DNA of 34,760 nt, taken from positions 1 through 34,760 of the forward strand of contig JAEUTS010000122.1 of NCBI GenBank assembly GCA_016787005.1, in the 5' to 3' direction. Each line of letters begins with the position of its first letter. The stretch's first letter is position 1. Source of the DNA: Bacteroidia bacterium (GTDB lineage: Bacteria; Bacteroidota; Bacteroidia; JABDFU01). The notes beneath the pieces were generated by a model that had not been told where the DNA came from, did not search any database, and was given only the letters and a program-made list of their open reading frames with translations. Shown here piece by piece: positions 9,517 to 28,276 of this stretch. The position numbers and the translations under genes are program-made.

Positions 9517-9545
9517 GAAAAACCCCTGAGCAATCGGGGGTTTTT
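9517..9545 (+). terminator. Rho-independent terminator between bTHX and pdxH
   Basis: A 7-bp stem CCCCTGA / TCGGGGG (one wobble) with a GCAA tetraloop, flanked by A-run and T-run. It sits between the bTHX stop and the convergent pdxH stop at 9549 and may terminate both transcripts. Confidence 0.88.
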
Positions 9546-9548
9546 GAT

Positions 9549-10205
9549 TTAAGGCGCCAGTCGTTGTAAATTCCAGCTGATTTCATCATCCGATAATGTA
9601 AACAGTATCCTGTCGTGCAAACGATTCGGGCGGCCCTGCCAGAACTCTATCACAGAAGGTTTTAACAAATAACCACCCCAGAATGGCGGGCATGGAACTT
9701 TTTCTGCGGGATACTTAGCCGATAATTCAGCAAATTTATTTTCAAGTACCTCTCTGCTTTTTATCACCTGGCTCTGTTCCGAAACCCAAGCCCCTATTTT
9801 ACTTTCACGCGGGCGCGAATTAAAATATTTCTCTGATGTTTCTGAACTTACCTTTTCCAGACGGCCTTCAACACGTACCTGGCGCTCTATCTGTGGCCAG
9901 AAAAAGTTTAATGAGGCATACGGATTTTGGGCAATATCCATTCCCTTTTTGCTGTTGTAATTGGTATAAAAAACAAATCCCTGAGCACTAAAACCTCTTA
10001 ATAGCACAATACGTGAAGATGGTTTTCCATCCACACTGACAGTTGAAAGTGTCATGGCATGAGGCTCGCTGACGTTAGCCGCCAAGGCTTCCTTCATCCA
10101 TAATTCAAACTGAAAAACAGGATCTTTTGCAATTTCACTTTCATTCAGTTCCATCCTTGAGTAGTCAGAACGGAGTTTTCGTATTTGTTGATTCAATTCA
10201 TCCAT
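9549..10205 (-). CDS. pdxH: Pyridoxamine 5'-phosphate oxidase
   Basis: FMN-dependent oxidase making pyridoxal 5'-phosphate from PNP/PMP, the last step of vitamin B6 synthesis and salvage. At 218 residues it has family length. Visible motifs: MTLSTVSVDGKPSSRIVLLRG (FMN binding), FYTNYNSKKG, FFWPQIERQVRVEG, and the C-terminal PLP-site stretch EFWQGRPNRLHDR ending in RLAP, the typical terminus. The start lies only 8 bp after the small repeat-protein gene, so it is probably the last gene of a four-gene transcript beginning near 16119, an odd partner set for a cofactor enzyme. Confidence 0.96.
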   Translation of the reverse strand: MDELNQQIRKLRSDYSRMELNESEIAKDPVFQFELWMKEALAANVSEPHAMTLSTVSVDGKPSSRIVLLRGFSAQGFVFYTNYNSKKGMDIAQNPYASLNFFWPQIERQVRVEGRLEKVSSETSEKYFNSRPRESKIGAWVSEQSQVIKSREVLENKFAELSAKYPAEKVPCPPFWGGYLLKPSVIEFWQGRPNRLHDRILFTLSDDEISWNLQRLAP

Positions 10206-10213
10206 GACATCTG

Positions 10214-10600
10214 TTATTTAATTCCGGGAAATGCTTCCACAAATTTAACTTTTATATCCGGAAACGCGTCTACTATCTGAACCTTCAGGTCAGGAAAGGC
10301 CTCTACTACCTGCCATTTTCCACACTGGTCAGGAAAAGCCTCAACCATTTTTACTTTAATATCAGGGAATGCGTCAACTATCTGAATTTTTATGTCAGGA
10401 AAGGCAGTTACATATTTGATTTTCCCGTATAATTTCATTCCATTGAATTTACAATCGTCGGTGATCTTATTCCCATCAAATTCCCCGGAAGTAACGGTAT
10501 TATTCACAACAGCCGAATCCTTATGCAAAGAGCCGGCCGAACAGCTCATTGTAATATGGGCAAGCATAACTGTAAGAAATATTTTATTTAATTTATTCAT
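10214..10600 (-). CDS. Small exported protein with AFPD repeats (septoil-knot-like)
   Basis: A 128-residue protein with a signal sequence ending near TMSCSAG, so possibly lipidated although the lipobox is imperfect. The C-terminal half is six copies of an 11-residue beta-strand repeat, V(D/E)AFPDIKVK(x), the middle one expanded to 13 by a CGKW insert; a matching Cys precedes the array (DDCKFNG), suggesting a disulfide. I recall this pattern (repeated xFPD with a central CGKW) from the family named 7(1) septoil knot; that assignment is from memory and unverified. It lies 15 bp after the SpoIIE phosphatase gene and 8 bp before pdxH. Function unknown. Confidence 0.65.
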   Translation of the reverse strand: MNKLNKIFLTVMLAHITMSCSAGSLHKDSAVVNNTVTSGEFDGNKITDDCKFNGMKLYGKIKYVTAFPDIKIQIVDAFPDIKVKMVEAFPDQCGKWQVVEAFPDLKVQIVDAFPDIKVKFVEAFPGIK

Positions 10601-10615
10601 TCAATACATTATAAG

Positions 10616-13600
10616 TTAAAGACGTGTTCCTATCAACAGTATATCATCGACCTGCTCAAACCCCTCTTTCCATTGATCAATCGCTTTGGTCATGTATTCA
10701 CCTTGTTCTTTCATATTCAGGTGCTGCGTATCAAGCAACATTTTCTTGAGGGCACTGTATTTCAGCTTTTTCCCATTCACACCTCCGAACTGGTCGGCAT
10801 AACCATCGGAAAAAATATAGATAGTGTCTCCTTTTTCCAGTTGTATACTGTGGTTTGTAAACTTATGCTGATCACCGGACTTAAGGTTGCCAATAGGAAA
10901 TTTACTCGCTTTTATTTCATTCAAAACACCATTACGTATCCAGTACAAAGGATTGAATGCCCCTGAATACTGCAGCTCGTTTGTTTTACGATCGAACATA
11001 CAAAGCGCAATATCCATGCCATCTTTTACCTGATCTTCGGCGTGTGATTGACGCAACGTATCACTTACACTTTTATTTAACGCGTCCAGAACAAGCGCGG
11101 GTTGAGTGATCCCCTGTTCACCTACTATTTGCTCAAGGTGGTTATGGCCAATAATCGACATGAATGCACCGGGAACTCCATGTCCTGTACAATCAACTGC
11201 GGCGAACAACACTTTATCACCCTTATCATGCAGCCAGTAAAAATCGCCGCTCACAATATCTTTAGGCTTAAACAGGATAAATGTTTTCGGCAAATATTTT
11301 TCCACAAATTCATCGGGCGGCAATATGGCATCCTGTATACGTTTGGCATAGCGTATACTGGCCATTATATCTTTATTCTTTTCATCCAGCTGTTTATTTT
11401 TCTCTACTACCTCCGCGGTTCTTTCACGAACCTTCTCCTCAAGTACACGTTTCTCCACCACTAATTTACGCTCCCTCCATTTTACATACGTAAAGAACAA
11501 TAGCACTCCGACAACCACATATGCGAGATATGCCCACCAGGTGAAGTACCAGGGAGGCCTTATGCGGAATGAAAATGATACAGGTTCTTTGTTCCATACA
11601 CCCAGGTTATTGGAGGCTTTGACTTTGAAAGTGTAATTACCGGGAGACAGATTTGAATAGATAACCGAGGTTTGATTAGTTGCAGGCCGCCAGTTTTCTT
11701 CTTCTCCTTCAAGCATTACCATGAATTTTACCGCATCCGGATTGGAAATACATATACCTGAATAGCTGAACATCAGCGTATTTTGATCATAACTCAACGA
11801 ATAATTGTTTTGAAGGGGAATGGAACGTGAGTAATTGTATTTGATATCGGTGATATTAATAAGCGCTTCAAGCGTGTTCAACTGATCGTACGTTGAGTTA
11901 TATTTTATTAACCCATTAACAGTACCAAACCATATGTTTCCTTTTTTGTCGACATGAACAGCATTTGGTTTGGTCTCAATGGCAGTAAACCCTTCAAATT
12001 TACCATAGGAAATAAAACTTTTCGAATTTTGAACAAAACGATTGAGACCTTTATTCGTTCCGATCCAAATATCTCCTTTGTTGTCTTTAACAAGCAGGTT
12101 AATATAGTCAGATACAAGTCCATCCTGCGTTGTATAATGTTTGAATGCAGTACCATTGTATACAAATACCCCGCCGCCGGATGTACCGACCCATAAATTA
12201 CCGGCTTTGTCTTCTGTTAATGCGGTTGGTGAGGTGTTTGTTAATCCTTCCTCTTTAGCATATAATTTAAATTCCTTTCCATTGTATTTATATAATCCTC
12301 TTCCTACAACACTGATCCATATATTATTCTCCGAATCGCAATACAGCGCGTTTATTTCTTTCGCGTCGAAATTCTTTGTGCCTACAAAGTCTCTTACACT
12401 GGTTGAGGCGGGATCGAATACAACTAAAGCATTACCTGTAGCGATCCATATATTATCCTTTGCATCAACGCACAATGCGCCGATAAAAGGATTACTTATA
12501 AAATCATTAACGACAGTAACTGAATTAAACTCATTTGTTTTCGGGTTATACTTCAATAATTTATCCTGGTAGGTTCCGAGCCATACATCTCCTTTACTGT
12601 CACGGACTGCTGCGCGAAACGCCACCTTCGCGTTTCCTGTTATCTTTTCGTGATTATTAAACGTCCCGTTGACAGGATCTAATACTGACACACCGTTGCC
12701 TGTGGCAATAAAAATATTTCCATTTTCCACTTCTTCAACCGCCCATACCTTATCATTAATCAATCCCTGGGAAACATTGTAAGTGATAAAGCGTTCACCT
12801 TTAAAAATGAATAAACCACTGCCTTGTGTCCCAACCAGAATATTCCCCTCGCGGTCAATACTCAGTGCGTAAATTTTTAAGGCGGGCAAACCGTTACTTG
12901 CGTGATAGTTTGTTAGTTTTCCTTCAGCGGATAGTTTAACAAGTCCATCACCCCATGTAGCCGCCCAGGTATTGCCATTCTTATCAAAAACAATATCACG
13001 TATCCATACGGGAACAGGAAATGATTTTGTTGATCTTTTGGAAGGATCATACTTTACAAGTGTGGGTTGACCTAAAGTGGAGCCATACCAGAGGTTACCT
13101 TTTTCATCCTCTTTGATAGCGGACACATAAGCCAGTGACTGCCCGTTTATGCGAAGGAATTCGAATTTGTCGGAACCTGGTGACAAATACTTTACTCCAA
13201 CATCTGTAAGAAAACAGATGTTTCCGTTTTTCGATTCAAACATACTGAAGACATAACTGCTAAGACCATCGCCGGAACGATAGTATTTCAGATTCTCCTC
13301 AGCAGTAAGTGCATCGTTTGTTTTATTGATCTGTACAACACCAAACATGGCAACGGATACCCATATTTTGCCGGCCTTATCTTCATAAATAGAATATATC
13401 TTTTTATCCCTTATAGTATCAAGTGATAATTTTTCAAACTTATTATCGATATAACGGGTTATGTTACCGGAACTGTGCCCGAGCCAAAGCTCACCGTTAG
13501 ATGTAAGTAACATAGCGCTGATATTATTGTCGGCTAAACCATCTTCGGTTGTGTAATTGTAAAAGGTCTTTCCATCGAATCGCGACAGTCCGCCTTCAGT

Positions 13601-13765
13601 CCCGAGCCATATATTACCCTTCTTATCCTGTACAATAGCAACTACATTGGATTGAATAAGGCCGTCAGTAACGGAATAATTGTCGAATGAATAAAGTTGT
13701 GAGAATAACTGACCCGAAAGAAAGCAAAGGATAATTAAAAAGAAGTTATCTTTTTTACGATGCAT
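10616..13765 (-). CDS. Beta-propeller/Y_Y_Y sensor with SpoIIE-type PP2C phosphatase
   Basis: A 1049-residue transmembrane signalling protein. After a signal peptide (to about residue 22) come some fourteen propeller blades with the Reg_prop consensus (GNIWLGT..GL.r.d), forming two periplasmic propellers, then a Y_Y_Y domain (roughly 660-735), one membrane helix (743-763), a charged coiled coil (763-798) and a cytoplasmic SpoIIE/PP2C domain (from about 799). Metal-binding aspartates are visible: D841 (SGDFYW), D858 (VDCTGHG), D987 (FSDGYAD) and D1040/D1041 (VDDILL), so it looks active. Such domains dephosphorylate Ser/Thr of STAS anti-anti-sigma factors, but no such partner is in the window. 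It starts 14 bp after the caspase-like gene. The external ligand is unknown. Confidence 0.9.
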   Translation of the reverse strand: MHRKKDNFFLIILCFLSGQLFSQLYSFDNYSVTDGLIQSNVVAIVQDKKGNIWLGTEGGLSRFDGKTFYNYTTEDGLADNNISAMLLTSNGELWLGHSSGNITRYIDNKFEKLSLDTIRDKKIYSIYEDKAGKIWVSVAMFGVVQINKTNDALTAEENLKYYRSGDGLSSYVFSMFESKNGNICFLTDVGVKYLSPGSDKFEFLRINGQSLAYVSAIKEDEKGNLWYGSTLGQPTLVKYDPSKRSTKSFPVPVWIRDIVFDKNGNTWAATWGDGLVKLSAEGKLTNYHASNGLPALKIYALSIDREGNILVGTQGSGLFIFKGERFITYNVSQGLINDKVWAVEEVENGNIFIATGNGVSVLDPVNGTFNNHEKITGNAKVAFRAAVRDSKGDVWLGTYQDKLLKYNPKTNEFNSVTVVNDFISNPFIGALCVDAKDNIWIATGNALVVFDPASTSVRDFVGTKNFDAKEINALYCDSENNIWISVVGRGLYKYNGKEFKLYAKEEGLTNTSPTALTEDKAGNLWVGTSGGGVFVYNGTAFKHYTTQDGLVSDYINLLVKDNKGDIWIGTNKGLNRFVQNSKSFISYGKFEGFTAIETKPNAVHVDKKGNIWFGTVNGLIKYNSTYDQLNTLEALINITDIKYNYSRSIPLQNNYSLSYDQNTLMFSYSGICISNPDAVKFMVMLEGEEENWRPATNQTSVIYSNLSPGNYTFKVKASNNLGVWNKEPVSFSFRIRPPWYFTWWAYLAYVVVGVLLFFTYVKWRERKLVVEKRVLEEKVRERTAEVVEKNKQLDEKNKDIMASIRYAKRIQDAILPPDEFVEKYLPKTFILFKPKDIVSGDFYWLHDKGDKVLFAAVDCTGHGVPGAFMSIIGHNHLEQIVGEQGITQPALVLDALNKSVSDTLRQSHAEDQVKDGMDIALCMFDRKTNELQYSGAFNPLYWIRNGVLNEIKASKFPIGNLKSGDQHKFTNHSIQLEKGDTIYIFSDGYADQFGGVNGKKLKYSALKKMLLDTQHLNMKEQGEYMTKAIDQWKEGFEQVDDILLIGTRL

Positions 13766-13779
13766 GAGTCATTGATACA

Positions 13780-16119
13780 TTATTTTTTCATGAAAAAGAA
13801 AGTGCCATCTTCATCTTCGAGATCCTTGATCTTACGAAGTTTAGGGGCCTGGTTAGCTGTTTTCTGAACAGCTGCAGCTACCTTTTCAGAGATCTTGTCA
13901 ATTGAAATGCAGCCATCCGGATTATTGTTCAGTGAGGCAGCGAATGTTTTGGTGAACTGGGAATTGTCTGCGGCCAATTCGAACCCTGCGGATGAAAGCA
14001 CCTGCGAGGATTTGAGCTTCGTTGATTCCCAATCATCGCAACGTCTTTCCTTCGGTGTCGCGCGCATAGCAAGCATAAAAGACGGACCTGATTCACAGGC
14101 ATCGGTCACAACAAGCAGGTGAGCCAATTTATCATAACCCTGGAGTGATCCCTTTAAATTATTTATGCTGAAGTAGGTAAACTCATCATCCACTTTAGCA
14201 TCCACGGGTATCCAGTAGCCTGTCTGGTTTACGAATTTACCATGACCCGCGTACCAGATCACAACTGATGTTACGTTATTCAGCCTTAGCTGATCACGCA
14301 ATTCGATAGAGAAGAATTTCTCAAGGCCATCTTTCGTAAGGTCTTTTTTATGAATTATTTTATTCACCTTATAATTTGCAAGCGCTGATTTCATCATTGT
14401 CACATCCTTACCGGGCCCTTCAAGTATAGGAAAGTTCTTGTAATTGGTATTTTCAACAAATACCACCCAGGTAATGCCCATAGGATTATCCTTAGCTATA
14501 AGCGCTCCTTCCCTGTTAAGTTTGTACTTTACATTGGTTTCGTTGCCATTGATATCTCTCACCCTGATATTGATATCATTTTTATTGGCAATATTCGCTT
14601 TTATGGAAAAAGTGGGATTCAAAGATTCGAGGGCGTAGCTGGCCGAAACACCTTCAACAATAATTGATTCGATCAAACTCTCATCCTTTACTTTGCCTTC
14701 AATGTAAAGCTCCGGGTTGGTATTGTCCATAAATATTTCATTGTCGGATGAAGCCATCGGTGACACTAATTCAACCAAAGGTTTATTTATCTCGGTGCGA
14801 TCGATAGTATAGATGATCTTTTTAGTGTTATCGTATATATCGGTTGCCGATATTGAAAACTCAGTTCCGGTGCCTATCTGAATTCCACCGCTGAAATCGG
14901 GATTTATCGTGTCCTTGGTAAAATTAGCGGGAACATTATTAATGCTTATCGCTTTTATCTTACTTGCATCCTTAACGGTTCCCCTGACTACGATCTCTGT
15001 TTTATCTCCGGGAAGTTTAACCACATTCCTTTCATTTGCTTTAGGTGTAAGCAGTTCTATTTCGGGTTTATAGCTTTCACGGTTCAGTTCGAACAGCTTT
15101 TCTATCGCGGCCTTCATCATCTCTTTGGCTTTCTCATTATTCGGAGCCAGGGTCATTATCTTTTCATAATCAACCGCTGCCGATTTAAAATTGGTAAGCT
15201 GCTCATAGTTCCAGGCGCGTTTGTAATAGGCCTGCAAAAGATCTTTCCCGTTCATCCCGATCACTTTCGAGAAGTCATATATCGCATTCTGGTATTGACC
15301 CAGTTTTTCGTAATACTCCCCTCTTTTCATGAATAACATTTCATTATTCTGGTCACTGACAATTACCTTTGAAATATCATTCACTGCTGTTCCGAAATCG
15401 TTTTTGCTCGCGAAGATGCAGCTACGGGCATAAAAAATATCTTTATTGGTAGGATCCTTGGATATCGCCGCTTCAGCAATACTTAATGCTTCGTCATACT
15501 TTTTCAGTTTATCCTGTACAAGAATAAGTCCGACATAAGCCGGGATGAACTTTGAGTCATAATACTTGGAATTTTTATACTCTTTCTCAGCTTCAATATA
15601 GTTTTTCAAACTGTCCAGCATAACTGCATGGTAGTAATAAGCTGGTGCTGTTCTTTTATTATCTATCCAAAGCTGTGATGCTTCAAGTCCGTCCTTGAAA
15701 TTTTTGAGTTTCAAAAGAACTTTGAGGAAAACCTCAATTGCTTCATTGTATTCTTTGTCCTTAACAATGGCGTCCCTCAACATGGCGTCAGCTTCAGTAT
15801 ACTTACCGAGGTCATAATACAGTCGCCCTGCGTTGAAATAATTTTCTTTATCCTTAGGTGCAAAAACTGTAGCCCGCCTGTAGTCATCCGCCGCATCCGA
15901 ATTTCTCCCTGTTTTTTCATAACAATATGCACGCGCCTGGTAGGCCTTTACATACTTAGGGTCAAGCTCAATGGCTTTGGTATAACTGTTAATTGCATCC
16001 TCGTAGGAAAGACTTTCAAGAAACTTACTGCCACTGCTGTAAAATTTTTTCGCACTCTGAGCTTTTACAAAAAAAGTGCATGTGAGAAGGAAAAATAACA
16101 GGAGTGCTCTCTTAAACAT
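13780..16119 (-). CDS. Exported TPR protein with Ig-like repeats and C-terminal caspase-like peptidase
   Basis: The start at 16119 (779 residues) is chosen because it begins a clean signal peptide (MFKRALLLFFLLTCTFFVKAQ); an in-frame ATG at 16200 would put 27 residues before it. Residues ~25-350 are about nine TPRs. Two Ig-like beta repeats follow (~355-530, each with IxSIxVxxV(S/P)A-type strands). The C-terminal ~240 residues are a peptidase C14/caspase-like domain with the dyad H626 (WYAGHG) and C675 (DACESG), plus the ENTNYKNFPILEGPGKDV strand typical of p20 units. Both catalytic residues are present, so it may be active. It heads the transcript that includes the SpoIIE phosphatase. Substrate and trigger unknown. 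Confidence 0.87.
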   Translation of the reverse strand: MFKRALLLFFLLTCTFFVKAQSAKKFYSSGSKFLESLSYEDAINSYTKAIELDPKYVKAYQARAYCYEKTGRNSDAADDYRRATVFAPKDKENYFNAGRLYYDLGKYTEADAMLRDAIVKDKEYNEAIEVFLKVLLKLKNFKDGLEASQLWIDNKRTAPAYYYHAVMLDSLKNYIEAEKEYKNSKYYDSKFIPAYVGLILVQDKLKKYDEALSIAEAAISKDPTNKDIFYARSCIFASKNDFGTAVNDISKVIVSDQNNEMLFMKRGEYYEKLGQYQNAIYDFSKVIGMNGKDLLQAYYKRAWNYEQLTNFKSAAVDYEKIMTLAPNNEKAKEMMKAAIEKLFELNRESYKPEIELLTPKANERNVVKLPGDKTEIVVRGTVKDASKIKAISINNVPANFTKDTINPDFSGGIQIGTGTEFSISATDIYDNTKKIIYTIDRTEINKPLVELVSPMASSDNEIFMDNTNPELYIEGKVKDESLIESIIVEGVSASYALESLNPTFSIKANIANKNDINIRVRDINGNETNVKYKLNREGALIAKDNPMGITWVVFVENTNYKNFPILEGPGKDVTMMKSALANYKVNKIIHKKDLTKDGLEKFFSIELRDQLRLNNVTSVVIWYAGHGKFVNQTGYWIPVDAKVDDEFTYFSINNLKGSLQGYDKLAHLLVVTDACESGPSFMLAMRATPKERRCDDWESTKLKSSQVLSSAGFELAADNSQFTKTFAASLNNNPDGCISIDKISEKVAAAVQKTANQAPKLRKIKDLEDEDGTFFFMKK

Positions 16120-16514
16120 AATAATATACTTAATAAATTGATGCTTAATAAATTTAAACTCGCCCCACTTTCCTATGCCCCTGATATAAATGGTTTTCAT
16201 ATGGCTTAAACGGCAAACTCCATAATAACCAATATATTATACAGACAAAAATATAAAAATACTGTATTATCGGAGGCTTAATTACTTATTATTTATCATC
16301 ATTTTGGGGCCTATGTATGACTGCAATCTCCTTATTTTCAGGTTTTAGCTTTTGTTTAAGGATAATTTGCGATTTTTATACCTAAGGAACCTGTTATAAG
16401 AATTTTGATGCTGGCATATCTGGTTCTTCGCTAACCTGCCTCCTGCTCAGTAGGTCTGGCGGATAAAAAACCCTTAAATTGGCTAAGAACCGATATAACA
16501 CGACAATAGCGGAA
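16120..16514. other. Divergent intergenic region (395 bp)
   Basis: Separates the caspase-operon start from the second TMTC-like gene. The left half is AT-rich. On the minus strand CAAAAATA (16246-16253) reads as a perfect -7 element TATTTTTG for the caspase operon, but no -33 element is seen at 19-21 bases. Around 16446-16458 CCTGCTCAGTAGG is nearly self-complementary. I find no open reading frame, tRNA or terminator here, and no convincing plus-strand promoter. Confidence 0.5.
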
Positions 16515-19573: not shown

Positions 19574-22009
19574 ATGTATCTTTGGAATAACGGACATTCA
19601 AGTCCTTCAATTTCGGGCCTTTCTGCGGGTACGTATAAGGTTACTGTTACCGACAGCAAAGGCTGTACTTCCATAGCCTCAACTACTATCACTCAACCAC
19701 CGGCAATTTCAGGAAGCATATCATCATCTCCGGCAACCTGTGGTTCAAATAATGGAAGTGCTGTGGCCACAGCTTCCGGTGGAACGGGGACTCTTATGTA
19801 TACCTGGAGCAATGGTACAGTCGGAAACATAGCATCCGCTCTTTCGGCCGGATTTTATGCTGTTTCCGTTAAAGATGCTAATTCCTGCGTAAGAATATTT
19901 CCATTGCTTCTAACAAATACCGGCAGCGGTGTTGTGACTGCATTAACAAAATCCAATGTAAGTTGCAATGGCGGAAATAATGGCGGTGCGGTGGCGAGTA
20001 TTTCCGGAGGATCGGGCCCGTTTACATATAGTTGGAGTAACGGTTCTGTCGGGCAGACCGCAAACGGGCTGGCTGCCGGATTATATTTTGTAATTGTGCG
20101 TGATGCCAGCTTGTGTTTGTCTGGTTCAATTGTCAATATTACTCAACCTTTTCCTTTGAATATCACTTTTGGAGTCAGCCAACCCACCTGTGGTTCGGCA
20201 AACGGATATGCATCAGCCAATGTAACCGGCGGAACAGGACCATACAATTACAGCTGGAGTAACGGTGCCACCACCAAAACTATATCAGCGCTTCCTGCAG
20301 GTAATTATACCGTATCCGTTGCAGATACAAATAATTGTAAAACTTCAGACGTAGTAACTCTATTAGGCATAACAGCTCCGATTGTCACTGTATCTGTCAA
20401 TCAAATAACATGTAATGGTGCCGGTAACGGTTCAATAACATTGGCCGTTTCAAGCAGCGCAGGCATGCCCTATACATACAGCTGGAGCAATGGCGTAACC
20501 GGAACAACGGGTATTACAGGATTAAGCGCTGGCACTTACTTTGCAATAGTAACTAATTCGGTAGGGTGTGTCACAAGCAGATCAGTGGTCATCACAGAAC
20601 CTCCGGCAATTATATTATCAGCCAATTCATTAAACGCTCCATGTGTTTCTATAATTGGCAGCGCTCTTGCAACAACAATAGGAGGAACCGGTGCCTTTAC
20701 TTATAGCTGGAGCAGCGGTGCAACCGGACCAACTGCTTCAGGACTTACAACCGGAACGTACTCTTTAACGGCAATGGACGCCAATGGTTGTTCAACAACA
20801 ACAACAGTTGCGATCATTAATTCGGCCGGAACTGCAAGCACTACTGTTTTATCCAATGTAAGTTGTCATGGAGGCAGCAATGGGAGTGCCAGTGCCGGTA
20901 TGTCTGTGGGAAGTACAATCACTGCCTATATTTGGAGCAATGGCCAAACCGGTTCATTAATATCAGGAATTACTGCGGGAAATTATACAGTTACAATTAC
21001 CGACAGCAATGGTTGTCTGAATACATCAGTAGCTATAATCACAGAACCTCCTGCAATTATATTATCAGCCAATTCATTAAACACTCCATGTGTTACGATA
21101 AACGGAAGCGCTCTTGCAACAGCAACCGGCGGAACCGGCGCCTTCACCTATAGCTGGAGCAGCGGAGCCACAGGGCAAACCGTTTCCGGGCTTACACCCG
21201 GCAATTATACGGTAACGGTTATAGATGCGAACGCTTGTATCAAAAGCACAACAGTAAATATCGTTTATTCAGGTGCAAGCGCGGCTGTAGCTGCCGTTTT
21301 GTCCAATGTAAATTGTCATGGTGATAGCAACGGAAGCGCAACGGTAACTCTGTCCGGAACAAATACCGCTATTTCTTATTCCTGGAGTAACGGAGCCGCC
21401 ACGCAGTCGATTTCAGGTGTAGCCGGGGGAAGTTATACTGTTACAGTCACTGATAATAACAGTTGCAATTTTACCTCTATCGTTGTGATAGCTGAGCCGC
21501 CTCAACTTACTGCTGCCATATCAGCGGTAAACGCCACCTCAGCAGCAAGCTGCGACGGATCCATCACTTCTGTTGTATCCGGAGGAGTTCCGGTTTATTC
21601 TTATCAATGGTCGAATAGTTCAACAACCGCTTTTATTTCCGGGCTTTGCACCGGACTTTATGCTTATACAATTACAGATAGTCATGGCTGCGAGGTCAAG
21701 AACAGTGTATTGATATCTGACACATTAAATACCCGCTGTAACCTGCATTTTTACAATATGATCACACCTAATAACGATGGCAATAATGATTACTGGCACA
21801 TCGACTGCATTACAGCATATACGTTAAATAATGTAGCCATCTTTAACCGCTGGGGCAATAAAATCTGGCAAACGGATGGCTATAATAATACCGATCGTGC
21901 CTGGAAAGGCACAGATCAATCAGGAACAGCAATGCCCGAAGGTACTTACTTTTATGTTGTTAAGGTAAATTCAATCGAATATTCAGGCAAAGTAGAACTT
22001 CTGAAATGA
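19574..22009 (+). CDS. SprB-repeat adhesin, main part with T9SS type B sorting domain
   Basis: Continuation of the 19169 frame: about ten more SprB repeats of ~70-75 residues, each with a (Y/F)xYSWSNG strand, a G(L/I)xAGxYxVTVTD strand and a conserved Cys, then a ~90-residue C-terminal domain (CNLHFYNMITPNNDGNNDYW..., VAIFNRWGNKIW, EGTYFYVVKV) of the gliding-associated/type B sorting class. Such proteins cross the outer membrane through T9SS and stay on the surface, as SprB does in gliding. The ATG directly after the amber could reinitiate, but the product would lack a signal peptide. The stop overlaps the PorP/SprF start by ATGA. Confidence 0.87.
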   Translation: MYLWNNGHSSPSISGLSAGTYKVTVTDSKGCTSIASTTITQPPAISGSISSSPATCGSNNGSAVATASGGTGTLMYTWSNGTVGNIASALSAGFYAVSVKDANSCVRIFPLLLTNTGSGVVTALTKSNVSCNGGNNGGAVASISGGSGPFTYSWSNGSVGQTANGLAAGLYFVIVRDASLCLSGSIVNITQPFPLNITFGVSQPTCGSANGYASANVTGGTGPYNYSWSNGATTKTISALPAGNYTVSVADTNNCKTSDVVTLLGITAPIVTVSVNQITCNGAGNGSITLAVSSSAGMPYTYSWSNGVTGTTGITGLSAGTYFAIVTNSVGCVTSRSVVITEPPAIILSANSLNAPCVSIIGSALATTIGGTGAFTYSWSSGATGPTASGLTTGTYSLTAMDANGCSTTTTVAIINSAGTASTTVLSNVSCHGGSNGSASAGMSVGSTITAYIWSNGQTGSLISGITAGNYTVTITDSNGCLNTSVAIITEPPAIILSANSLNTPCVTINGSALATATGGTGAFTYSWSSGATGQTVSGLTPGNYTVTVIDANACIKSTTVNIVYSGASAAVAAVLSNVNCHGDSNGSATVTLSGTNTAISYSWSNGAATQSISGVAGGSYTVTVTDNNSCNFTSIVVIAEPPQLTAAISAVNATSAASCDGSITSVVSGGVPVYSYQWSNSSTTAFISGLCTGLYAYTITDSHGCEVKNSVLISDTLNTRCNLHFYNMITPNNDGNNDYWHIDCITAYTLNNVAIFNRWGNKIWQTDGYNNTDRAWKGTDQSGTAMPEGTYFYVVKVNSIEYSGKVELLK
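20591..21487 (+). repeat. Tandem two-repeat unit in SprB-like gene
   Basis: A block of about 447 bp (two SprB repeats, 149 codons) occurs twice in tandem: 20591-21037 and 21038-21487. The first ~57 bases of each copy differ at only two positions, and both encode ITEPPAIILSANSLN; the rest is diverged but alignable (GTGAFTYSWSSGATG in both). This points to a recent duplication or gene conversion. Confidence 0.75.
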
Positions 22010-22917
22010 TAAGAGCCCGTAATTTTTTTTTATACTTTATCGTTTTATTTTTTGCCGGCACCTTGTCGGCACAACAATATCCGCAATACAGCGGGTATAT
22101 GTTCAACCGCTTCGCCATTAATCCTGCCTATGCCGGTAATTACAATACATTCCAGGCTACTGCCATGATTCGTAATCAATGGGTAGGTATACAAAACGCG
22201 CCCAATACCTCTTCCCTCTCCTTTCATGGTACGCTAAAGAATGAAAAGGTCGCGCTTGGCTTTAATGTATTCAGCGACGCGATCGGGTTTTCAAAAACAA
22301 ATGCGGTTTTTGGCACCTATGCTTATCGCCTTATCATGCCCTCAGGTACATTGTCGTTTGGCTTACGCATGGGTGTGGCGAATGTTTCTTATAATTGGGA
22401 AGATGTCGATGTAAAGGATAAAGTGGACGCTTTGTTAGGAGCAGGTGTCACAAATGTTTCCCGCGTGCTTTCCGATGCCGGTGTATATTATCACAACAAT
22501 ACATTTTACGCGGGGCTCAGCGCTACAAACCTTATCGGGCAGGGAATGCCTACACTGAATTATTCCCAGCTGCTTCTCCCCCACCTCTTTCTAACAGCCG
22601 GTAAGTCATTCAGCATATCCGATAATTTAATTATCAATCCTTCTGTTTTAATTAAACTGGTTCAGGGTGCCATGGGTATTGATATAAACTGTAATTTCCT
22701 TATCAGCAATAAACTTTGGTTAGGCTTATCGGGCAGGATTGGATATGGTTACGTATTGCTAATGCAATACAATATCACAGAAAAATTCAAAATAGGTTAC
22801 GCGTATGATCTCGGACGAAATGATATAGGTATCATTGGCGGATCATCACACGAAATTATGTTGGGATATAATTTCAGTTTGTTTAGCAGGAAAATGCAGT
22901 CATTCAGATTTCTCTGA
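22006..22917 (+). CDS. PorP/SprF family T9SS outer membrane protein
   Basis: A 303-residue outer-membrane beta-barrel of the PorP/SprF family, which partners with type B sorting-domain substrates (SprF is needed for SprB display in Flavobacterium johnsoniae). A signal peptide ending at SAQ is followed by the family signature QYPQYSGYMFNRFAINPAYAG, NQWVGIQNAP and many amphipathic strands, ending in a barrel-type Phe-rich terminus. The start overlaps the adhesin stop by four bases (ATGA), indicating translational coupling and a dedicated adhesin/partner pair. As for other such genes next to type B substrates, it is probably specific for this adhesin rather than the core T9SS PorP. Confidence 0.9.
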   Translation: MIRARNFFLYFIVLFFAGTLSAQQYPQYSGYMFNRFAINPAYAGNYNTFQATAMIRNQWVGIQNAPNTSSLSFHGTLKNEKVALGFNVFSDAIGFSKTNAVFGTYAYRLIMPSGTLSFGLRMGVANVSYNWEDVDVKDKVDALLGAGVTNVSRVLSDAGVYYHNNTFYAGLSATNLIGQGMPTLNYSQLLLPHLFLTAGKSFSISDNLIINPSVLIKLVQGAMGIDINCNFLISNKLWLGLSGRIGYGYVLLMQYNITEKFKIGYAYDLGRNDIGIIGGSSHEIMLGYNFSLFSRKMQSFRFL

Positions 22918-22922
22918 TACGT

Positions 22923-25601
22923 ATGGTAAAAAGAACCGGTATATTATTTATTCTCCTTGTGATGACCTGTTCCGTGAAAGTGAACGCGCAACTCGCGAAG
23001 GCCGATAAATATTTTTCGAATTACGAATATGCCAACGCCATACCCTGCTATTTAAAAGTTGTTAAAAAAGGTACTAACCTGCCCGCTTTACAAAATCTGG
23101 CTCACTGTTACAGGCTCACGAAAAACTACACCCAGGCGGAGATCTACTATGCACAGGCTGTACAGCAAATGGGTGTTGACCCCGTTAACTTTTTCTATTA
23201 CGGGCTGGTGTTAAAGAACAATAAAAAATACGAAGAAGCCGAAAAACAATTTAACCGTTACATGGAGCTGGTCCCTTCCGATCAAAAGGCCGATCTCTCG
23301 GTAAAATCAATGCAGGAACTTAAAGTGATGATGGCACAGCCTTCCCATTATGAGATAACCAATGTAAAAGCCCTCAACTCGCTGCGATCGGAATTCGCGC
23401 CTGCATTTTATAAGAACGGCCTGGTTTATACCAGCGACCGTGAGCCCGACCTTGTTAACTTCCAGAACAGCGAATGGAACAAGCATCCGTATTTCAACCT
23501 GTACTTTGCCGAATCGGATCCGAAAGATAAAAACGTATTCAAATCCTCTCAGCGCTTTTCAAAGAAAGTGAATGGTCCTTATCACGATGGTATGGCCACC
23601 TTTAACAGCGATCATACTCAAATGTTCTTTACGCGTATTGAAACACGTTCGGCATCGAACAAAATATTTCAGCCGCATATCTATTCCTCAAAGGCTTCCA
23701 ATGGCAAATGGGATAAAGGAGAGCTTGTTCCCCTCGCCAGCGACAGCGCCTGGGTTTCACATCCAAGCCTGTCGGCCGACGGCCAGCAATTGTATTTCGC
23801 GGCCGATATCGCGGGAGGTTTTGGAGGAAAAGATATTTATGTATCGAAAAAAGAAGGTGACAAATGGGGCACTCCGCAAAATCTCGGACCTAATGTAAAT
23901 ACTGTACTTGATGAGGTGTTCCCCTATATCCGTAAGGACAATGTTTTATTTTTCAGTTCAACCGGCCATACCGGCCTGGGTGGATTTGATATTTTTTCAT
24001 CATCACAGATCAACGGCAAATGGAGCAAGCCCGAGAATCTTGGTACACCACTTAACTCATCCACAGATGATTTCGGTATTTTGTTCGGGGAAGATAACCT
24101 GTCGGGCTATTTTTCATCCGACAGAGCTGATGGCCAGGGTGCGGATGATATTTACAGCTTCATTCAGCTGAAACTTATCTCCATGAAAGGGAAAGTGCTG
24201 CTGAGTAGGGATATTAATCAGCCTGCCAAAGGCATTAAAGTTCTCCTGCTTTCAGAAGACGGTAAAGTGCTGGGGGTAACATCAACGGACAGCCTGGGTT
24301 TCTTTAAGTTCGAAAACCTGAGCCCGGATTTGCAGTACCTGGTTAAAATGGACGAAAGTGACGCGAATTTCAATCCTAACAAAAAATACTACCTGGCTAA
24401 TGAGTTGAATAAAATTTTAAGAGTTACCGTTATTAATGATCACGGCCAGAAATTTGTGTTCGAGAAATTACCGGCCGACCTTGTAGCGTTGAAGCCCGAT
24501 TCGCTGATTGATAATGCCAGCCAGATAGCGGGCACGCTGCTTATAGGTGACAATCCCTCTAAACCATACGCCAATAAAAAAGTAAACCTGTTGAACGAAA
24601 AAGGTGAGGTTGTAAAAACCATTGTTACCAATGGCTTTGGTTCATTTGTTTTTACCGATCTCGACCCCGATGTAACTTATTTTATTGCCGCCGATGAAAG
24701 CGACGGAGGGCTTTCGCCTAACAGCAAGATTATTTTAACCAACTCATCGGCTAAAGAGATCAAGGTAATTAAGTCCGACTCAAAGGGCGGGTTCAGGTTC
24801 ACGCTGCTTAAAGGCGATAACAACGAATTATCATTCCTGCAGGTGGATGACACCAAGCTGCGAATGGATATGAAAGGGAGATTATACGCCGATACACTTT
24901 CGCAGCCCATGGCCAATGCAAAGATCGACCTGGTTAATGAACGGGGCCAGGTGCAGCAAAGCATTACCACCAAACCCAACGGAGGCTTTCTATTTACCGC
25001 ACTGCCTTTTAACGAAAGCTTTTTGTTCCGTATTGATGAAAACGATCCACGGTTAAAGGATCTGAAGAAGCTGATCTTTACAAATGAAGCCGGTGTTGTT
25101 ATAAAAGTAATTCACTTTAAAAAGGATGCCGGGTTTAAATTTCAGTTTTTGGCCGGAGATTACAAAAGTATATCCACCACTTATGTGGATGACCCCTGGT
25201 TAAAAGTATTGCAGTTCAAACAAAACGAAAAGGGCAAGAACGACAGCGTGAATATTGTAGAGAACATTTATTACAACCTGGATGATTACAAAGTGCTGCC
25301 CGAAGCCCGTAAAGTACTTGACAAGGTAGTTGACCTGATGAAGAACAACTCAAAACTATCCGTTGAAATTGGCTCCCATACCGACTCAAGAGCCACTGAT
25401 GAATATAACCTTAATCTCTCACAAAAACGGGCCAAAGCCGCTACCGATTACATCATCCAAAACGGCATTGCCAAAAAGCGCATAACTGGAACAGGCTATG
25501 GCGAAACCCGCCTCATTAATAAATGCGGTAATGGTGTTGATTGCCCCGAAGAAGAACATGCCAAGAATAGAAGGACGGAGTTTAGGGTGTATGTGAAGTG
25601 A
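22923..25601 (+). CDS. PorE-like OmpA-family protein (TPR, PD40, three CRDs, OmpA)
   Basis: An 892-residue periplasmic protein starting 5 bp after the PorP/SprF gene. Signal peptide to about residue 23; TPR region (~25-130); PD40/WD40-like propeller (~150-415) with blades such as SLSADGQQLYFA and GGKDIYVSKK; three carboxypeptidase-regulatory-like beta sandwiches in tandem (~418-745, each with G.vvLlnE.G.v..t.T...G.F.F..L and a DESD/DEND motif); and a C-terminal OmpA domain (~765-892) with IGSHTDSRATDEYNLNLSQKRA, which binds peptidoglycan. This is the order seen in PorE, which links T9SS to peptidoglycan, except that PorE has one CRD. Likely anchors the adhesin/SprF complex to the cell wall. 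Role inferred. Confidence 0.88.
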   Translation: MVKRTGILFILLVMTCSVKVNAQLAKADKYFSNYEYANAIPCYLKVVKKGTNLPALQNLAHCYRLTKNYTQAEIYYAQAVQQMGVDPVNFFYYGLVLKNNKKYEEAEKQFNRYMELVPSDQKADLSVKSMQELKVMMAQPSHYEITNVKALNSLRSEFAPAFYKNGLVYTSDREPDLVNFQNSEWNKHPYFNLYFAESDPKDKNVFKSSQRFSKKVNGPYHDGMATFNSDHTQMFFTRIETRSASNKIFQPHIYSSKASNGKWDKGELVPLASDSAWVSHPSLSADGQQLYFAADIAGGFGGKDIYVSKKEGDKWGTPQNLGPNVNTVLDEVFPYIRKDNVLFFSSTGHTGLGGFDIFSSSQINGKWSKPENLGTPLNSSTDDFGILFGEDNLSGYFSSDRADGQGADDIYSFIQLKLISMKGKVLLSRDINQPAKGIKVLLLSEDGKVLGVTSTDSLGFFKFENLSPDLQYLVKMDESDANFNPNKKYYLANELNKILRVTVINDHGQKFVFEKLPADLVALKPDSLIDNASQIAGTLLIGDNPSKPYANKKVNLLNEKGEVVKTIVTNGFGSFVFTDLDPDVTYFIAADESDGGLSPNSKIILTNSSAKEIKVIKSDSKGGFRFTLLKGDNNELSFLQVDDTKLRMDMKGRLYADTLSQPMANAKIDLVNERGQVQQSITTKPNGGFLFTALPFNESFLFRIDENDPRLKDLKKLIFTNEAGVVIKVIHFKKDAGFKFQFLAGDYKSISTTYVDDPWLKVLQFKQNEKGKNDSVNIVENIYYNLDDYKVLPEARKVLDKVVDLMKNNSKLSVEIGSHTDSRATDEYNLNLSQKRAKAATDYIIQNGIAKKRITGTGYGETRLINKCGNGVDCPEEEHAKNRRTEFRVYVK

Positions 25602-25645
25602 AGTCTGTTGATTATATTAGATTTATCATTTATTTTTTGTAATTC

Positions 25646-28276
25646 ATGATTAGGAAAATTCTACATATAAATTTCTTTATTGTCCTTTTTTCTGCATTAT
25701 CATTCGGCCAATATTACCGTGCCTGGAATAGTATTTATCCAAGTTCTCAAGGCGGGGGACTGCAAGGTTTTGAATCTGTGGTTGATCAAAATGGATATGT
25801 ATATCTAGGAATTGGAAAGAATGGATTGGGTCCGCCATATTATGGATCTTACCTGATGAAATACGATCCTCATGGATATATGCAATGGGAACATTTAGAT
25901 TCAATTTCTTCATTTGGAACAATGAAAATAAGCAGAAGTGGCTTTTTGCACATTGCCAACTCTAATAATATTTATCCAAATTACTATTTGACATTAAGAA
26001 AACTTGATGCAAATGGGAAAACTCTTTGGACTTATAAAGATGTCTCAAATAGTACTACAACTGTAAATTATTATAATAATATTGATTTTGACAGTAAAGG
26101 AAATATTATTGCTGCTGGTACGATTAATTCTGGTGGAATTTTTGCATTAACATCCAAAATTGATACGCTTGGAAATCTTTTATGGAAGAAACAGATAAAT
26201 TTTGGAGGATACAGTAGTGCCTATTCATTATTAATCGATGCTTCAGACAATATATATGTATCAATTAAAAATGGAATTGTCAAGTATAGCCCCACCGGAG
26301 CTGAATTATGGAGTATCCCTTTGGACTTTTGGACTATATCGGCCATCTCCTTTGACAAACAAGGTAATATATATGCAGTTGGCATTACAAACTCAACCCA
26401 TTTAATGGGAACCAATAAAATTGATCCGAATGGGAAACTACTTTGGTCTCAAACTTTTGGATATGGAGATGCATACGGTACATCAATTGCTATGGATTCA
26501 GTAGGTAATGTATATGTTGCGGGTGCAATAGGTGCAACAAATAATCCGTATAGTTTAGCAACAGGTGTTCTTTTAAAATATACACCAAACGGAAACTTAA
26601 TTTGGTCAAAGAATTATTCAGGCACATCAGCTACCCGTGCAATCAATACAAACAATTCTATTAGCATTACAACAATAGCCCCAAATAAATTTATGCTTTA
26701 TGGTACATTTTTAAACAATTCAACATTTGCAGATTGCTTCCTATCGTTAATTGATACTTCCGGAGCTATTCTATGGCAGGACATATTTCATTCTAATAAT
26801 CCACATGAAGAATGTCAGGGTTGGTGGGATTTAAATATCGATAATGATAAAAATATATACATGCTGGGGGGGCATGGGACTTGCACCGGAAACAGCATGG
26901 ATGATTTATTATTAATGAAATATACAATGAACAATAGAAATTCTTCCCCATCAATACATGGAAATTTATATTATGATGTAAATCAGGATTGTATTTTGGA
27001 TTCTACTGAATCAAAACTGGAAGGTAAAATAATTGGCCTGATAGACAGTACTAAAAATCTTATAAATTATGCAATGACCGATACTGGTGGCAATTTTTAT
27101 TTTTATGCTCCGATTGGAAAATATCAAATTGATCCGGTACCTCCTAAATATTGGATTAGCACATGTAACAATGGAGTTTCATTAAGTATTGACAGCAGCT
27201 CCTCCGTTTCATATAATAATAAATTAGGACTTTTTATGCTCCAGAATGTACAAGATTTAAGAATAAGTGTTGGAGGAGGACACATTCGGGCCGGACACAA
27301 GGTTGAATACAATGTTTTTGCGGAAAATTCAGGTACAAAACCGATGAGTGGTAACATCGTAATTCTTCATGATTCGATTTTACATTTTGTAAATGCGACT
27401 CCACCTCCAGATTCTGTTTTCCAGACTAAATTAGTCTGGAATTATTCCAACCTCCTTGCGGGAAAAAGTACAAAAGTTGATTTTACTTTGGCAGTCGATA
27501 CGAGTGTTTCTTTTAATTCTACTATAGATAAGCTTTATGCAATCATTACACCTGTTTTAACAGATACTACTCCAGAAAACAATATTGATAGTTTGTTGCA
27601 ATTCCCATTTGGCCCATATGATCCGAATCACAAATCGGTTAATTTCCAGGATACTGTTTATAAAAACGATACATCTTTTACATATATGATTCAATTTCAA
27701 AACCTGGGTAACGATACAGCTTTCAATGTGGTATTGAGGGATACGATAAGTGATTTGTTTGAATTAGCCAGTGTGGAAATGGGTGCATCAAGTTATCCCT
27801 ATTCAACAAGATTTATAGGAAACGTTATGTTTATCAACTTCAAAAACATCTCTTTACCTCCGAAAATAATTGACGAAGCCAATAGCCAGGGATTTGTAAA
27901 ATATAGTATAAAAAGGATAAAAAATATTGCTCCCGGAACAAGAATTATTAATCGAGCAGCTATCTACTTCGATTATATGCCACCGGTAATAACCAATGAT
28001 GCAAGCAATATATATTTGGAACGGCCACTCACCAGTTTTGAGAAATTAGAATCATTAAAGATATTTCCCAATCCTGCCGACTTCAGCATAGCCATACAAG
28101 GCATTCGGAGTAAGACGAAAATTACCCTCTATGATATGTTAGGTAAGCTGCTTAAAGAAGAGGTTACCGATAGCGATATTTTAATTGAAACCCATAAATT
28201 AACGAAAGGCATTTACTTACTTATTACTGAAAGAGATGGTCATAGAGTTTACAACAAAGTATTAATTGTCAGGTAA
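25646..28276 (+). CDS. T9SS type A sorting-domain protein with SBBP-like propeller
   Basis: An 876-residue exported protein. Signal peptide (MIRKILHINFFIVLFSALSFG) is followed by a repetitive beta-propeller half (~25-425) with blades of the form D..GNiYv.G....N....K.dp.G.llW. A SdrD-B-like beta sandwich follows (~430-515, DVNQDCILDSTESKLEG). The next part (~530-795) is a DUF11/DUF7619-like region with FGPYDPNHKSVNFQ and YMIQFQNLGNDTAFNVVL. The last ~75 residues are the type A sorting domain (IFPNPADFSIAIQG, ITLYDMLGKLLKEE, LTKGIYLLI). The T9SS should secrete it and fix it to the surface. It is AT-richer than the genes before it, hinting at separate acquisition. Ligand unknown. Confidence 0.88.
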   Translation: MIRKILHINFFIVLFSALSFGQYYRAWNSIYPSSQGGGLQGFESVVDQNGYVYLGIGKNGLGPPYYGSYLMKYDPHGYMQWEHLDSISSFGTMKISRSGFLHIANSNNIYPNYYLTLRKLDANGKTLWTYKDVSNSTTTVNYYNNIDFDSKGNIIAAGTINSGGIFALTSKIDTLGNLLWKKQINFGGYSSAYSLLIDASDNIYVSIKNGIVKYSPTGAELWSIPLDFWTISAISFDKQGNIYAVGITNSTHLMGTNKIDPNGKLLWSQTFGYGDAYGTSIAMDSVGNVYVAGAIGATNNPYSLATGVLLKYTPNGNLIWSKNYSGTSATRAINTNNSISITTIAPNKFMLYGTFLNNSTFADCFLSLIDTSGAILWQDIFHSNNPHEECQGWWDLNIDNDKNIYMLGGHGTCTGNSMDDLLLMKYTMNNRNSSPSIHGNLYYDVNQDCILDSTESKLEGKIIGLIDSTKNLINYAMTDTGGNFYFYAPIGKYQIDPVPPKYWISTCNNGVSLSIDSSSSVSYNNKLGLFMLQNVQDLRISVGGGHIRAGHKVEYNVFAENSGTKPMSGNIVILHDSILHFVNATPPPDSVFQTKLVWNYSNLLAGKSTKVDFTLAVDTSVSFNSTIDKLYAIITPVLTDTTPENNIDSLLQFPFGPYDPNHKSVNFQDTVYKNDTSFTYMIQFQNLGNDTAFNVVLRDTISDLFELASVEMGASSYPYSTRFIGNVMFINFKNISLPPKIIDEANSQGFVKYSIKRIKNIAPGTRIINRAAIYFDYMPPVITNDASNIYLERPLTSFEKLESLKIFPNPADFSIAIQGIRSKTKITLYDMLGKLLKEEVTDSDILIETHKLTKGIYLLITERDGHRVYNKVLIVR

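Follow-up and report, generated by a model that had tools for sequence, protein, structure and literature searches.

The locus and its four genes

The window, that is, the whole 34,760-nucleotide stretch of DNA that was analysed, is contig C199 of a 3.16-Mb, 85% complete Bacteroidia assembly in 436 contigs. Its minus strand carries four closely packed genes in the order CASP, PROP, repeat protein gene and pdxH, separated by gaps of 14, 15 and 8 bp (Table 1). A first-pass annotation made from the sequence had listed these four ORFs, their gaps and a His626/Cys675 dyad in the first product, all of which were reproduced here. The spacing suggests that the genes are carried on one transcript. A scan for sigma-70-type promoters gave no excess over shuffles, and the likely terminator downstream of pdxH is absent from the terminator scanner's list because its loop exceeds the scanner's limit. 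An in-frame ATG at 16200 offers CASP an alternative start, which would extend the protein to 806 aa. In comparison with the nearest species, both of the leading genes show strong purifying selection, with dN/dS values of 0.03 for CASP and 0.05 for PROP.

Elsewhere in the window, positions 19574-28276 hold a row of genes for an SprB-repeat protein with a type IX secretion (T9SS) signal, a PorP/SprF protein, an OmpA/PD40 protein and a Por-tail protein, which is a type IX secretion surface-adhesin cluster.

Table 1. Features of the CASP–PROP locus (positions in the window)
Feature	Position	Strand	Basis or remark
Likely terminator 3′ of pdxH	9518..9545	-	AAAAACCCC-10 nt-GGGGTTTTT, read directly off the sequence
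pdxH, pyridoxamine 5′-phosphate oxidase, 218 aa	9549..10205	-	NCBIfam pdxH, E 3e-84; PNPOx (Pfam)
Small exported (A/S)FPDxKVQ-repeat protein, 128 aa	10214..10600	-	Passenger, probably outside the system
PROP, transmembrane receptor-phosphatase, 1049 aa	10616..13765	-	Pfam, orthologue alignment, AF2 model
PROP SpoIIE-type PP2C phosphatase domain, res. 849-1049	10616..11221	-	Pfam, E 1e-20
PROP signalling helix, res. 777-814	11324..11437	-	Alignment of PP2C and cyclase receptors
PROP transmembrane helix, res. 743-767	11465..11539	-	Hydropathy, AF2 helix
PROP Y_Y_Y domain, res. 674-735	11561..11746	-	Pfam
PROP ectodomain, propeller repeats, res. 24-630	11876..13696	-	Reg_prop, E 5e-54; double propeller by BT4663 match
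CASP, exported TPR-Ig-Ig-caspase protein, 779 aa	13780..16119	-	Pfam, AF2 model, homologues in 54/395 class genomes
CASP caspase (Peptidase_C14) domain, res. 548-779	13783..14478	-	Pfam, E 3e-13; alignment
CASP Cys675 codon	14095-14097	-	Motif TDACESG
CASP His626 codon	14242-14244	-	Motif WYAGHG
CASP two Ig-like beta domains, res. 350-445 and 446-536	14512..15072	-	AF2 secondary structure
CASP TPR array, ~10 repeats, res. 23-345	15085..16053	-	Pfam; AF2 pLDDT ~95 there
CASP signal peptide, res. 1-20	16060..16119	-	Hydropathy; predicted cleavage before Gln21

An exported caspase-family protein

CASP is a relative of caspase, the cell-death protease of animals, and belongs to the Peptidase_C14 family by its Pfam score (50.3 bits against a curated cut-off of 21.4), and the His-Cys dyad of that family is present as H626 and C675 in their respective GHG and DxC contexts. 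Pfam, alignment and hydropathy together bear out the earlier description of this dyad as lying behind a signal peptide and TPRs. The AF2 model (mean pLDDT 86) resolves the TPR helices, two beta domains and the caspase domain; the Ig-like region appears in it as two similar beta blocks, for which no Pfam family was matched. Hydropathy reveals no second hydrophobic segment and, being without a membrane anchor, CASP is probably soluble in the periplasm. Among solved structures, the nearest sequence to the caspase profile is that of MALT1 (E 0.004). Foldseek searches with full-length CASP returned TPR proteins only, and the kinship to caspases therefore rests on sequence.

Export is predicted for both leading proteins, as the first-pass annotation had proposed, and each has an invariant glutamine at its predicted cleavage site: Gln21 in 40 homologues of CASP and Gln23 in 21 orthologues of PROP. 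Both residues fit the “Q-rule” for exported proteins of Bacteroidetes (PMC5837995).

A transmembrane receptor with a PP2C output

The ectodomain of PROP matches that of BT4663 (4a2l/4a2m; Foldseek E 3e-48, TM 0.78 to target), and apart from the N-terminal export signal the protein has a single hydrophobic segment, at residues 740-763. The AF2 model (pLDDT 83) comprises propellers, Y_Y_Y domain, transmembrane helix, coiled coil and PP2C domain. The last of these scores 74.9 bits against the Pfam SpoIIE cut-off of 25 and superimposes on the PP2C domain of SiaA (6k4e) with a TM of 0.87-0.89 to target. Across 21 orthologues there is no variation at its acidic residues D841, D858, D918, D987 and D1041, and this conservation upholds the earlier view of an apparently active phosphatase.

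Two more specific identities were considered for PROP and rejected. The SiaA equivalog model NF038263 gave 212 bits, over the C-terminal part only, against a cut-off of 700, and the model for the T9SS component PorZ, NF052228, gave 109 bits against a cut-off of 260, reflecting propeller similarity only.

SpoIIE-type phosphatases are numerous in genome G000, where 22 matches to PROP were found, many of them with other sensor parts; this suggests that the lineage has PP2C proteins as one of its principal means of signalling.

Distribution and co-inheritance of the pair

Homologues of CASP (E <= 1e-50) were found in 54 of the 395 genomes of the class; a search for its occurrence beyond the class, in 396 genomes of the phylum, gave one, namely the window's own. 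A PROP homologue lies directly downstream on the same strand in 36 of the 54, with a median gap of 10 bp (range -44 to 63 in 35 pairs), and this arrangement recurs in at least nine anonymised families, more than chance would give. The first-pass annotation had named the lack of a conserved neighbourhood in other genomes as refuting its proposal; the caspase-TPR plus Reg_prop/SpoIIE neighbourhood is conserved there. Moreover, four of five close relatives from named genome records carry the pair, and in the fifth the contig stops inside CASP. Seven further CASP genomes (G171, G276, G053, G007, G089, G284 and G223) have an unlinked PROP orthologue; in G001, CASP runs off the contig end. No PROP orthologue was detected in about ten of the 54 CASP genomes, three of which, all of family f62, have an intact dyad.

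Since propeller receptors are numerous, as the PROP-like matches of G000 illustrate, the specificity of the partner matters. In ectodomain trees, the PROPs partnered with CASP form one clade with support of 100/99 (100/98 was also obtained), or 100/100 when unlinked copies are included. This clade consists of genes from CASP-bearing genomes only, and all non-partner propellers fall outside it, the apparent exception, L130, being the unlinked orthologue of G171. The best ectodomain matches of 15 CASP-less genomes likewise fall outside. An ectodomain profile at 744 bits or more, a threshold chosen after inspection of the list, retrieved 35 genomes, all with CASP. In families f8, f20, f41, f33 and f27, a genome has either both CASP and PROP or neither, except for G359, where they lie on separate contigs, and G223, whose PROP orthologue is lower-scoring; these co-occurrences, like the dyad counts given below, are phylogenetically correlated, with f8 representing one event. 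A hypergeometric value calculated for the co-occurrence takes no account of relatedness and is not put forward as a probability.

In the flanking regions covered, no other neighbour of the pair recurs beyond family level. The repeat protein, for which there was no Pfam match, adjoins the pair in G000 and G004, two species of the window genus, and nowhere else; pdxH adjoins it only in genus g1. Both were rejected as components of the system, the former since its other homologues sit in unrelated families and the latter since its linkage is limited to a genus. The four-gene envelope system proposed in the first-pass annotation was not sustained in this respect, its last two members being genus-level passengers by distribution, although that annotation had itself allowed that pdxH might merely be carried along. 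Small exported proteins of the (A/S)FPDxKVQ type (L155-L160 among them) are scattered over 17 of the 395 class genomes, in unrelated families.

Exchange of the receptor output for adenylate cyclase

In family f8, the phosphatase at the end of the PROP orthologues is replaced by an adenylate cyclase of class III (PF00211, E 1e-50 to 1e-56). The two metal-binding Asp residues, the Lys/Asp adenine pair and Asn/Arg are intact, in keeping with class III membership, and the motifs FTD, EKIKTIGDSY, YDIWGD and VNTASR are conserved in ten aligned receptors. PP2C and cyclase receptors can be aligned through the transmembrane helix and the signalling helix with its ERTAEV motif, and they diverge just beyond this motif, which marks the swap point in f8. 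In the ectodomain tree, the f8 receptors are nested inside the partner clade. When a receptor-cyclase (L105) was used to search genomes outside f8, the top full-ectodomain match was the CASP-linked PROP or, in G171, the unlinked orthologue. Another propeller-cyclase outscored it in G031, by way of the cyclase part.

A cyclase-type PROP orthologue also occurs in genome G276 of family f62. Its cyclase is 43% identical to that of f8 and 52-54% identical to other propeller-cyclases, so that the output was probably swapped twice, in f8 and separately in f62. Neither the swap nor the truncated caspase described below formed part of the interpretation in the first-pass annotation.

Fate of the caspase dyad

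The state of the dyad was scored at CASP columns 626 and 675. Both residues are intact in all 25 CASPs linked to a PP2C receptor, and they are kept in 4/4 CASPs of family f3 that are accompanied by an unlinked PP2C-type PROP. In genus g84 of the same family, where there is no PROP orthologue, none of five retains the dyad (the residues are QA, QA, EG, EG and LT). The cyclase-linked CASPs of f8 have mostly kept His, and in 14/14 the Cys is absent, having changed to Ala or Ser, and the p10 part is lost; all 14 end right after the Cys position, at SF(Y/F)(E/D)LTR or a one-letter variant of it. Second CASP copies in f27 (L095, L096 and L100), which have no adjacent PROP, read HT in three of three (as DAT) while keeping their full length, and they form a separate pseudo-caspase lineage.

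It appears from these sequences that an intact catalytic dyad accompanies a PP2C-type partner, with f62, whose CASPs keep both residues, as the exception, and with few independent events behind the pattern. A strict rule that a cyclase receptor means a dead caspase is refuted by G276, which combines an intact dyad with a cyclase-type PROP orthologue. Conservation of the dyad beside PP2C receptors argues for catalysis there. Since the f8 caspase is a truncated pseudo-enzyme, proteolysis may not be the sole role of CASP, and this variant argues for an additional role in binding.

Proposed mechanism and alternatives

We consider it reasonably probable that CASP acts upstream of PROP, the two forming a two-gene trans-envelope signalling unit. 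The exported CASP would capture a protein or peptide cue in the periplasm by means of its TPR and Ig-like domains, and its caspase domain would process the cue, PROP or CASP itself. Such processing would alter how the double-propeller/Y_Y_Y ectodomain of PROP is engaged, presumably by direct contact with CASP; from there the signal would travel through the one transmembrane helix and the coiled coil to the PP2C domain. A helix switch of PP2C has been described for SpoIIE (PMC5468089), and the PROP phosphatase may be switched on in the same manner. Once active, it would dephosphorylate a cytoplasmic target, most likely an anti-anti-sigma factor of the STAS type. STAS proteins are the usual substrates of SpoIIE-type phosphatases; their presence in all seven genomes tested is loosely consistent with such a target, as they are also common elsewhere. 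In f8, the truncated, Cys-less CASP would act on the cyclase receptor by binding alone. A more committed form of this proposal, in which cleavage of the receptor or of a ligand by the caspase in the periplasm switches the PP2C domain, and in which the pseudo-caspase of one lineage has become the ligand of the cyclase version, is offered only tentatively.

It is also conceivable, if rather unlikely, that CASP and PROP serve one process without acting on each other, for instance as a periplasmic protease and a sensor of envelope stress or polymers that are co-regulated from an operon. In favour of this, both proteins are exported and their genes adjoin, the genes are unlinked in some genomes, and others have CASP only. 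However, none but CASP genomes contribute to the PROP ectodomain clade, despite the many similar propeller receptors, and the dyad decays on loss of PROP, which together are more specific than membership in a shared process predicts. An inverted order, in which the caspase is made under the control of the PROP output and is the effector of envelope remodelling, secreted-protein processing or lysis, would suit the frequent role of caspases as effectors and the type IX secretion genes nearby in the window species, but it is improbable: the PP2C and cyclase domains are cytoplasmic whereas CASP is exported, and in f8 the effector would be dead and truncated, yet still co-inherited with the receptor.

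The four-gene system mentioned above draws on the gaps of 15 and 8 bp and on the likely terminator after pdxH, and is very improbable given a repeat protein that stands beside the pair in two species only and a pdxH linkage restricted to one genus. The least credible reading, to which we give hardly any weight, is a module for phage defence or programmed death that kills the cell through cleavage by the caspase. Caspase-like proteases with TPRs do act in bacterial immunity, but CASP and PROP both have signal peptides, no mobile context was seen, and the PADLOC match was limited to TPR similarity with PrimPol (E 1e-5). As a known anti-phage defence system, the pair was rejected on the PADLOC result. 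Action of CASP upstream of PROP remains the preferred reading.

Relation to known systems and significance

Among the closest counterparts of PROP are the hybrid two-component systems (HTCS) of Bacteroides, such as BT4663, with which it shares the double-propeller and Y_Y_Y ectodomain, a single transmembrane helix and coiled-coil transmission. It differs from them in having a PP2C or adenylate cyclase output rather than histidine kinase, receiver and AraC parts, and in having a dedicated exported partner of the caspase family. Receptor phosphatases of the SpoIIE/RsbU/SiaA type share its PP2C fold and acidic residues; in PROP, unlike these, the sensor is a Reg_prop ectodomain and the genetic partner is a caspase rather than SiaB/C/D or Rsb genes. 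CASP, for its part, resembles orthocaspases and the paracaspase MALT1 in its C14 p20 region with an HC dyad, but is set apart by its export, its TPR-Ig-Ig-caspase architecture and its tie to a receptor. MALT1 also carries Ig domains. Pseudo-orthocaspases are reported to be rare in Bacteroidetes (10/1078; PMC6426788) and share with the f8 CASPs the loss of the catalytic Cys, whereas the latter mostly keep His, have Ala or Ser in place of Cys, end right after it (SFYELTR) and are linked to a cyclase receptor.

Short, stand-alone caspase domains of 264-267 aa with the HC dyad intact and neither TPR nor Ig parts were seen in f23 (L122 and L123), in the same lineage as CASP.

The operon section of a 2012 survey of caspase operons (PMC3501461) contains no operon like CASP–PROP, and no description of the pair was found in an open library of 5.39 million papers. 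The individual domains are known; their combination is new as far as could be tested, and it points to an undescribed mode of trans-envelope signalling in several families of uncultured Bacteroidota.

Caspase homologues abound in prokaryotes, but a partner or a role is known for few of them. In the present case, a single exported lineage comes with a specific co-inherited receptor, an output that was exchanged in nature and naturally occurring variants in which the enzyme is dead, and this makes the role of CASP testable, for example through a cAMP readout in E. coli. If the proposal holds, signalling by the caspase family would be extended to the envelope of bacteria, and one-component PP2C and cyclase receptors would gain a two-protein input.

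A final observation concerns f62, where a membrane protein with MFS, HEAT and cNMP-binding parts by Pfam is encoded about 100 bp downstream of an intact CASP (L087:4921-8220 and L097:1866-5207), and where the cyclase-type PROP orthologue of G276 lies elsewhere in the genome. The membrane protein is possibly a cAMP effector of the CASP–PROP pathway.
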